Of a stretch of DNA of 64,000 bases, positions 17,048-44,124 are shown piece by piece. How positions within the stretch are numbered: the stretch's first letter is position 1; each line of letters begins with the position of its first letter. This DNA comes from Microbacterium lemovicicum. GTDB taxonomy: Bacteria > Actinomycetota > Actinomycetes > Actinomycetales > Microbacteriaceae. The translations under genes and the position numbers were made by a program. The stretch lies in assembly GCF_003991875.1 (NCBI RefSeq), contig NZ_CP031423.1, positions 1,612,001 to 1,676,000 on the forward strand, in the 5' to 3' direction. The notes under the pieces are model-generated. The model was not told where the DNA came from. It was given only the letters and a program-made list of their open reading frames with translations, and ran no database searches.

Positions 17048-18265
17048 TCAGGGTGTCAGCGCCCGCACGACGGCGTCGGCCAGCAGCCGTCCGCGAAGGG
17101 TCAGCACCACCCGGCCCTGGAAGGCCGCCGGCCCGTCGACGAGACCGTCGGTGATGAGGGCGGCGATCGCGTGCCGGCCCTCGCCGAGGAGCTCCGACAC
17201 GGGCAGGCCGTCGCGGATGCGGCTGCGCAGCAGCACGTCCTCCAGGCGCCGGGCCTCGGCGTCGGGACGCTCGCGTCCGGCCGCGGGCGACTGCCCGGCG
17301 TGCAGCCGCTGGGCGTACGCCGCCGGGTGCTTGACGTTCCAGAACCGGAGGCCGTCGATGTGGCTGTGCGCCCCCGGGCCGAAGCCCCACCAATCCGAGC
17401 CCCGCCAGTACGCGAGGTTGTGGCGGGAGCGGTGGGCCGGACTCCGCGACCAGTTCGACACCTCGTACCAGTCGAACCCGGCGGCATCCATCCGTGCGTC
17501 GGCGAGCTCGTACATGTCGGCCTGCAGGTCGTCGTCGGGAGCGGTGACCTCGCCGCGGCGGATGCGGCGGGCGAGCTTCGTGCCCTCCTCGATGATGAGC
17601 GCGTAGGCCGAGACGTGGTCGGGCTCGAGGGCCAGCACCGTCTCGAGCGAGCGCCGCCAGTCGTCGAGCGACTCCCCCGGCGCGCCGTAGATGAGGTCGA
17701 GGCTCACCTCGAGGCCGGCCGCACGTGCGGCGGCGACCGCCGTGTCGACGTTGCGGGGATCGTGCGTGCGGTCCAGCACGGCGAGCACATGCGGCACGGC
17801 GGACTGCATGCCGATCGACATCCGCGTGACCCCGGCCTCGGCCAGCTCGGCGGCCGCGGCATCCGTCACGGTGTCGGGGTTCGCCTCGACGGTGATCTCC
17901 GCACCGGGGGCGAGGCCGAAGGCGTCGCGCACCCCCTGCAGCATGCGGCCGAGGTCGCCGGGCGGCAGGAGGGTCGGCGTGCCGCCGCCGAAGAACACCG
18001 TCGCGGCCGGTCGCAGGGAACCGGCCTGGGACAGGATGCCGCGGGCCAGGGCGACCTCGTCGAGCAGGGTGTCGGCGTACTGGTCCTGGCGCGCGCCGCG
18101 CAGTTCGTCGGACGTGTAGGTGTTGAAGTCGCAGTAGCCGCAGCGCACGCGGCAGAACGGCACGTGCAGGTAGACCGAGAAGTCCGTCTCGGGACGGGCG
18201 CGGACGTCGTCCGGCAGCCGGCCGTCGAGGGGTGCGGGATCGCCGAGCGGAAGGGCCGCGCCCAT
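17048..18265 (-). CDS. hemW: Radical SAM heme chaperone HemW
   Basis: A 405-residue radical SAM protein. Cys38, Cys42 and Cys45 in VPFCRVRCGYCDF bind the 4Fe-4S cluster. There is no fourth Cys after the CxxxCxxC, which separates HemW from HemN coproporphyrinogen dehydrogenase. FFGGGTPTLL and HNLAYWRGSDWWGFGPGAHS are family signatures. HemW transfers heme into client proteins such as respiratory enzymes (family knowledge). Its ATG shares a base with the stop of the upstream DUF1990 gene (TGATG), so the two are coupled. hrcA follows 83 nt on, behind its own promoter. Confidence 0.94.
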   Translation of the reverse strand: MGAALPLGDPAPLDGRLPDDVRARPETDFSVYLHVPFCRVRCGYCDFNTYTSDELRGARQDQYADTLLDEVALARGILSQAGSLRPAATVFFGGGTPTLLPPGDLGRMLQGVRDAFGLAPGAEITVEANPDTVTDAAAAELAEAGVTRMSIGMQSAVPHVLAVLDRTHDPRNVDTAVAAARAAGLEVSLDLIYGAPGESLDDWRRSLETVLALEPDHVSAYALIIEEGTKLARRIRRGEVTAPDDDLQADMYELADARMDAAGFDWYEVSNWSRSPAHRSRHNLAYWRGSDWWGFGPGAHSHIDGLRFWNVKHPAAYAQRLHAGQSPAAGRERPDAEARRLEDVLLRSRIRDGLPVSELLGEGRHAIAALITDGLVDGPAAFQGRVVLTLRGRLLADAVVRALTP

Positions 18266-41959: not shown

Positions 41960-41966
41960 CTTCCGG

Positions 41967-42039
41967 TGGACCTGAGGGGACTCGAACCCCTGACCCCCTG
42001 CATGCCATGCAGGTGCGCTACCAGCTGCGCCACAGGCCC
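41967..42039 (-). tRNA. tRNA-Ala (anticodon GGC)
   Basis: Seventy-three nt. The acceptor stem GGGCCTG pairs with CAGGTCC (one G-T), the anticodon arm is CCTGC, loop ATGGCAT, GCAGG, so the anticodon is GGC reading GCC/GCU Ala codons. The T arm GGGGTTCGAGTCCCC is canonical. The discriminator is A and the CCA end is not encoded. It lies between the sugar dehydrogenase gene and rsfS, with its own promoter and terminator. Confidence 0.97.
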
Positions 42040-42076
42040 ATCTTCTGCCGCCCGGCTCTCACCGGGCAACTCGACT

Positions 42077-42082
42077 AGATTA
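42077..42082 (-). promoter_or_regulatory. Candidate -10 of the tRNA-Ala gene
   Basis: TAATCT on the minus strand about 37 nt before the mature tRNA 5' end; a small hairpin (about 42049-42066) lies in the precursor leader. Confidence 0.5.
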
Positions 42083-42117
42083 CTACATCCCGAGCCGTGC
42101 GAAGAACCGCGGCGGGT

Positions 42118-42491
42118 TCAGGAGCCGGCGTGGGCAGCCGTCTCGATGGGCACGACGGGGCAGTCCTTCCAGAGGCGCTCGAGTCCGTAGTACATGCGCT
42201 CCTCCTCGTGGAAGACGTGCACGACGAGGTCGCCGAAGTCGAGCAGCACCCAGCGCGCCTCGGAGCGGCCCTCACGGCGGAGGCGCTTGTGCCCGGCGGC
42301 GTTGAGCTGGTCCTCGATCTCGTCGGCGATCGCGGCGACGTTGCGCTCGCTGCGACCGGTGACGATGAGGAAGATGTCGACGAGCGGCAGCGGGCCGGAG
42401 ACGTCGAGGGCGACGAGATCCTCCCCGCCCTTCGCGTCGCGGCGGCGGCGGCGATCGCGAGCATCTCGCGGGACTGGTCTGTGGCGGTCAT
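42118..42491 (-). pseudogene. rsfS: Ribosome silencing factor RsfS, frameshifted in a GCC tract
   Basis: The start [17 protein letters not shown] (ATG 42491) and the rest of a normal RsfS (from DAKGGEDLVALDVSGPLPL to VVPIETAAHAGS, stop 42118) are both present but in different frames. One base is missing within the repeated GCC tract at about 42437-42453; adding it restores a 124-residue protein. As written, translation of the first frame leaves RsfS after about 19 residues. No start codon lies just upstream in the second frame. RsfS (RsfA/YbeB) binds L14 and keeps ribosomal subunits apart in starvation. The ATGA overlap with the upstream gene confirms the start. A sequencing error, a true mutation and slippage are all possible. 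Confidence 0.88.
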
Positions 42492-43531
42492 GCGAATACT
42501 CCTGTGGCGACGGCGACGATGAGGACGCCGACGACGGCGATCGCCAGGACGCCGGCGGTGATGGCGAGGGCGAGCATCAGACGGCTGCCCTTCTCGGGGG
42601 CCGGCGGACGGATGATGTCGCCGGTGGTCTTGATGGTGCTGACGGCGGCGCTGGCCGCGATCGGCGTGGGTGAGGAATGGGCGGGGAGCTCGCCGTCGAT
42701 CAGGACGGCGTCGGCTTCGCGGCCGTCGGCGGTGCCGGGCGCGTGGCCCTGCGAGCCGAGCCCCTCCGGCAGTGCGAAGGTGCCGGTGATCAGCACCTCG
42801 CCGGTGGCGGCGACGGGGCCCATGATGGCGCCCTCGGGCGTCTGGGTCAGGATGAGCGCGTTCGGGGTCGACACGGCGCCGGTCGCCGCGGATCCGCGCG
42901 CCAGCAGCTGGTCGAACGATGCTGCGGTCGCCGTCGGTGCTGCCTCGCCGACGAGGAGCTCGGAGCCGAAGGACGGGCTGAGCGTCACGCGCTCCGCGTC
43001 GTCGTCGGCGGATGCTGCGACCGCGGATGCTGCGACCTCGGGCTCTGCGGCGGCGTCGGCTGCAGCATCCGGAGTCTCGGTGTCCGCGGTATCCGAGTCG
43101 GTGGGTTCTGCGACCTCGGCGGGCGCGTCGTTCACGGTCTCGGCGGCGGGCGCGCTCTCGGCGGAGTCGTCCGTCGACGAAGCGGCGGCCTCTTCGGCCT
43201 TCAGCCGGGCGGCCTCGGCATGCGCGGCGGCCATGTCGGGGGTGATGACGGGCACCGACGCGGTGCGGATGCGCTCCTGCTGACGGGCCTGGCGGCGGGT
43301 CAGCGGGGTGACGCCCAGGTCGACGCTGGCGTCGGGCACCGGCGCAGGCGCGACCTCGACAGGCGCGGCGGGCCGCGGAAGCGGTGCGGGCGCGGCGGCG
43401 ACCGGCGCGGCGGGCTGCTCGGCCTGCGGAACCTGGTCGGCCGACACGATCGGCGTCGAGGAGGTGTCGCGGATCTGGCGCATCTCCTTGCGGGTGAGGG
43501 TGCGCTGTTCCGGCTGCTCGGGTGTGGTCAT
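42488..43531 (-). CDS. Pro/Ala-rich single-pass membrane protein of the nadD-rsfS operon
   Basis: A 347-residue protein with no recognised domain. The N-terminus [16 protein letters not shown] and a second [17 protein letters not shown] block are basic and conserved-looking. Long low-complexity stretches rich in Ala, Pro, Glu and Asp fill about residues 35-230. One membrane helix ([24 protein letters not shown]) ends the protein, so most of it is cytosolic with a C-terminal anchor. Proteins of this shape occupy the same spot between nadD and rsfS in other Microbacteriaceae (recollection, not checked). Both ends overlap the neighbours by four bases. Function is unknown; a scaffold role is only a guess. 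Confidence 0.8.
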
Positions 43532-44124
43532 TCCTTGCTCCGGTAGAGGTGATGCTTCGCGATGTACTGGACGACCCCGTCGGGGACGAGGTACCAGACC
43601 GGTCGGTCGGTGTTGACGCGGTCCCGGCAATCCGTGGACGAGATCGCCAGCGCGGGGATCTCGAGCTGGCTCACCTTCTCGACGGGCAGTCCATCCGTGC
43701 TGAGCACGTGCCCCGGACGGGAGACGGCGACGAAGTGGGCCAGGTCCCACAGTTCATCATGGTCCCTCCAACTGAGAATCTGCGCCACGGCGTCCGCACC
43801 GGTGATGAAGAACAGCTCGGAGTCGGGTCTCCGGTCCTTCAGATCGCGGAGCGTGTCGATCGTGTAGGTCGGCCCCGCGCGGTCGATGTCGACGCGGCTC
43901 ACGGTGAACTGCGGATTCGATGCCGTGGCGATCACCGTCATGAGATAGCGGTGCTCGCTGTCGGTGACCTCGGATTTCTGCCACGGACGACCGGTGGGCA
44001 CGAAGACGACCTCGTCGAGGTCGAAGTACTGCGCGACCTCACTGGCGGCGACGAGGTGTCCATGATGGATGGGATCGAACGTCCCACCCATGACCCCGAT
44101 CCTCGGGGCTCTCGTCACCGACAT
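43528..44124 (-). CDS. nadD: Nicotinate-nucleotide adenylyltransferase
   Basis: A 198-residue nucleotidyltransferase that makes nicotinic acid adenine dinucleotide from NaMN and ATP in NAD synthesis. [11 protein letters not shown] (residues 13-23) is the nucleotide-binding motif; [13 protein letters not shown] and the C-terminal [11 protein letters not shown] are family signatures, the latter with Cys where Ile is usual. Length is normal. The ATG at 44124 lies 9 nt after a small membrane-protein gene, and the stop overlaps the next gene by four bases. Confidence 0.95.

Follow-up and report, generated by a model that had tools for sequence, protein, structure and literature searches.

The question raised by this locus is whether this strain of Microbacterium lemovicicum has lost the ribosome-resting factor RsfS or whether the gene is broken only in the sequence record. 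In the window, which is the whole stretch of 64,000 nucleotides that was analysed, residues 1-18 of RsfS are encoded in one reading frame (frame A) and residues 19-124 in another (frame B), the two meeting at a run of four GCC repeats. This confirms the original prediction that rsfS is out of frame by one base. No single uninterrupted coding sequence runs from a start codon through the gene in this record. The features of the locus, in the order in which the minus strand is read, are:

42488..43750, minus strand: upstream neighbouring open reading frame, 420 aa in the ORF list, its last bases overlapping the start of rsfS
42499..42503, minus strand: AGGAG, likely ribosome-binding site before the frame A ATG (putative, from the sequence only)
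42118-42491, minus strand: rsfS, both halves, a normal RsfS split over two frames
42438..42491, minus strand: frame A, start ATG and RsfS residues 1-18, equal in translation to the first 18 residues of public protein P0004
42441..42452, minus strand: GCC x4 tract, meeting point of frames A and B, read from the sequence
42118..42438, minus strand: frame B, RsfS residues 19-124 and TGA stop, matching TIGR00090 and equal in translation to the last 106 residues of P0004
42075..42491, minus strand: frame A in full, open to TAG, 138 aa including 120 unlike RsfS (ORF list and translation)
41965..42039, minus strand: tRNA-Ala (ggc), next downstream feature (ARAGORN)

The two frames have edge base 42438 in common. 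Frame A begins at the ATG at 42491 and ends at a TAG at 42077-42075, both on the minus strand. The frame B protein, DAKGGEDLVALDVSGPLPLVDIF...AAHAGS, ends at a TGA at 42120-42118 on the same strand, and the remainder of RsfS, from DAKGGEDLVALDV to AAHAGS, lies in this frame rather than in that of residues 1-18. The G+C content at 42075-42491 is 72% and the wrong frame stays open beyond the true gene end, so that the one-base break gives a 138-aa product instead of an early stop. The upstream open reading frame at 42488..43750 probably has its true start further in. Upstream of rsfS there are what we take to be a membrane-protein-like reading frame and a nadD-like gene.

Frame B is open from an upstream stop at 42579 onward and could in principle be read from its own start codon to give a shortened, working RsfS. 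Against this, no ATG, GTG or TTG occurs in the frame between that stop and 42249 (residue 82 of 124), and no CTG, ATT, ATC or ATA before 42390 (residue 35). This is the least probable of the explanations considered. If the DNA record is right, rsfS is most likely null.

The family assignment rests on frame B, which exceeds the curated cut-offs of both RsfS models. It matches NCBIfam TIGR00090 (rsfS) with an E value of 1.3e-29 and 102.2 bits (cut-off 56.9; profile 11-99 of 99) and PF02410 of Pfam with 103.5 bits (cut-off 21.6), the latter match beginning at profile position 8. It also matches the solved chain 4wcw (E 3e-32). The first 124 residues of frame A matched no NCBIfam model. In E. coli and S. 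aureus, RsfS is described as binding uL14 and blocking subunit joining (PMC7125091, PMC3400551).

The host genome is a single contig of 3,555,647 bases with completeness 100 and contamination 0.17. A search of this complete 3.56 Mb genome for a second rsfS copy gave frame B as its one RsfS match. The genome also has an open HPF-family gene. Plasmid records gave three matches, the best of them 78% identical and covering 34% of the query. No relative was found in viral contigs.

That rsfS is broadly conserved had been claimed from the window, and this is borne out among relatives. In a comparison of 118 genomes including this one, an RsfS match is present in 114 of the other 117, and the three genomes without it are 81 to 87% complete. 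The Pfam match in those 114 starts at profile position 2, 3 or 5, compared with 8 here. A larger genus set of 366 genomes including this one, for which match starts were taken from the best matches listed, has RsfS in 355 of the other 365; four of the ten without it pass the quality filter, and these are in 30 to 550 contigs. Two genomes (G265 and G357) have much weaker RsfS matches, with E values of 5.4e-15 and 5.1e-22, and are in 430 and 410 contigs; these matches are perhaps cut at contig ends.

Comparison with relatives, as proposed alongside the original prediction, was extended to 110 other rsfS loci, 30 from the 118-genome set and the 80 nearest named loci, among which some species may occur twice. 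An in-frame ATG, GTG or TTG within 32 codons is present at all 110 and absent here. At the site of the tract the GCC run has four repeats here and 0 to 3 in 109 of the 110. Of the 80 nearest named loci, most carry the label Microbacterium. The rsfS of a record that bears the title Planococcus sp. APC 4015 (L067) is 83% identical to this Microbacterium copy, which suggests that the title is probably wrong.

A protein search, of which the best 120 of 7,995 matches were considered, returned a public protein, P0004, that is 124 aa long and found on four contigs, the longest of 990,122 bases. It is exactly identical to the first 18 residues from frame A followed by the last 106 from frame B. The joined length of 124 residues given in the original prediction is therefore right, and the second half is, as stated there, without decay. 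Among the same best 120 matches is P0005, which has 97% identity in the matching part and lies on a contig of 3,683,951 bases. We take both to be proteins of close relatives, as neither is encoded by the window in a single frame and the sequence of P0005 is different. Since P0004 equals both halves exactly, there is no decay at all at the protein level, rsfS is intact elsewhere very close by, and the break is limited to this strain or its assembly. As far as could be seen, the frame break appears to be confined to this record. No same-species DNA copy for a base-by-base comparison was found among the matches listed from 347 other genus genomes scored, 18 further genus genomes with candidates being left unscored. 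The best DNA match listed has 76% identity over nearly the entire 2.4-kb query, with partial matches of up to 83% identity.

Three causes had been put forward for the break: an assembly error, a very recent loss, and ribosome slippage on the GCC repeats. The first two stand, and the third is not supported. Recoding, whether programmed or by chance, would have ribosomes or RNA polymerase switch register at the tract so that some full-length RsfS is made. Both halves of rsfS are intact, as this would need, and frame A has no stop before the gene end, so ribosomes would pass the tract. On the other hand, slippage along GCC should keep the frame, by the reasoning that the repeat unit is one codon and the tRNA re-pairs in three-base steps. 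There is no slippery heptamer of the form X XXY YYZ in 42118-42491, nor any homopolymer longer than 4. The RNA around the switch folds no better than shuffled sequence (z -0.21, with 78 of 200 shuffles folding at least as well, in a test that covers folds other than pseudoknots). Conservation is what one expects of a programmed frameshift (PMC3711429), and a frame break is seen in none of the 110 other loci. Neither a conserved break nor a heptamer or long homopolymer nor an RNA structure thus marks the locus as a programmed frameshift, and recoding of any kind is very unlikely.

The quality of the assembly was assessed with a custom frame-tracking HMM applied to 1.264 Mb of this genome, made up of the window and sixty 20-kb stretches. 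Among 462 same-strand frame changes it raised 28 flags, unevenly spread: the first 464 kb accounted for 2 (rsfS and L153:7046) of 166 changes and the further 800 kb for 26 of 296. Two other Microbacterium genomes, used as controls, had 2 of 148 (G396) and 10 of 147 (G047) flagged. When the model was trained on both samples the counts were 2 of 168 and 26 of 298, so the higher flagged share in the second sample (L202-L241) is not due to training. Seven of these 26 flags were translated; on inspection by eye, six have the look of ordinary neighbouring genes, and the seventh is at L224:17259. Under a stricter rule, which keeps a switch only if the stop of the upstream frame lies over 100 bases beyond it or if there is no start near it, rsfS and three others are left in the 1.264 Mb, two of the three being among the six ordinary-looking borders. 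The same rule leaves none in G396 and two in G047. In a simulation with 300 random one-base deletions the model detected 161, including 147 of the 199 placed at least 150 bases inside a segment. The model treats the first half of rsfS, which is short, as non-coding; the gene was therefore flagged for its missing start codon, and the switch itself was unseen by the model.

At L224:16943-18216 (G000:C1:966943-968216) the frame switches near 17259, with the upstream frame free of stops for 247 bases, and a membrane-like piece is continued by a methyltransferase-like frame, both named by eye. This may be another frameshift or else a gene border that was wrongly read. Searches with the frame-1 piece gave no match in 118 other genus genomes or in the protein database, a result that is informative neither way.

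GCC tracts of four or more repeats occur 31 times in the 1.264 Mb. The same coding frame lies on both sides of 25 of these, the other six, including that of rsfS, touch sequence called non-coding by the model, and none lies between two different coding frames. A systematic error at GCC tracts is therefore unsupported. An assembly ridden with indels is likewise unsupported, given the small number of strong frame breaks, though bounded only roughly. With few breaks left by the stricter rule and GCC x4 tracts unbroken as a class, the assembly looks fair and the rsfS break looks like a one-off.

It is most likely that no new biological mechanism lies behind the rsfS break, but either a leftover sequencing error or a very young mutation. 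The reading we favour, with a probability of about 0.58, is that sequencing or assembly introduced a single isolated one-base error into a G+C-rich run of alanine codons, the complete genome being sound otherwise, and that the cell most likely carries an intact rsfS. In the record the halves are out of register, and each is equal to its part of a public protein; we infer that the fault is in the record rather than in the cell. The identity of P0004 to both halves argues for this, as do the presence of RsfS across the two genome sets and the in-frame start at all of the compared loci. The GeneTack authors, too, expect sequencing errors over real indels for one-off frameshifts with a known joined protein (PMC3711429). 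Against an error, the scarcity of strong breaks and the intact GCC x4 tracts mean that no error pattern explains the one in rsfS. Long-read indel errors are reported to cluster at homopolymers, which the rsfS tract is not, with a small share of long-read deletions hitting non-repeated bases (PMC12007338).

The break may instead be a real, very recent loss of one base, in nature or during laboratory passage, leaving an rsfS null that makes 18 right and 120 wrong residues and no RsfS. This is a serious competitor that falls short of even odds. It is consistent with the high completeness and low contamination of the one-contig genome, with rsfS being among only four spots left by the stricter rule, and with a tract of the longest GCC run class at its site. 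Loss of rsfS need not be lethal: in E. coli, doubling in rich medium is reported as near normal, at 30 and 32 min (PMC3400551), and the HPF gene is present and open here. The impairment that the original prediction expected of a loss is shown in E. coli, whose strains without rsfS are described as surviving stationary phase poorly and stalling on a shift from rich to poor medium (PMC3400551, PMC7125091). Points against a real loss are that rsfS is kept nearly genus-wide and that no second lesion is seen in the gene. Because the gene is so highly kept and shows no other decay, error is favoured over mutation, without certainty. Among the papers listed by a literature search, none was about a frameshifted or pseudogene rsfS, as far as titles and abstract openings tell.

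A tentative picture, in the case of mutation, is of a strain that has truly and very recently lost a ribosome-resting factor that is among the most widely kept, has kept HPF and lives without RsfS. Such a strain would be a natural rsfS null, and what RsfS does for actinobacterial starvation survival would be directly testable in it. The locus also carries a caution, in that the apparent loss of a conserved gene from a finished genome may hang on one base. Annotation or gene-content work would score rsfS as broken in this genome.

In comparison with known systems, frame B aligns end to end, except for the first positions, with the RsfS / RsfA / YbeB family (TIGR00090, PF02410; chains 4wcw, 6sj5, 6sj6). 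Both halves, joined in another public record, make up a 124-aa RsfS; the difference from the family is that the coding sequence here is divided between two frames. Programmed frameshift genes such as prfB, as these are described in PMC3711429, likewise encode one protein in two overlapping open frames; rsfS differs from them in having no slippery heptamer, notable fold or conserved break. No tested feature sets rsfS apart from the singleton frameshifts of GeneTack, as described in the same source: like them, its break is found in one genome, the joined protein is known, here from the intact P0004 elsewhere, and there is no frame break common to its relatives.
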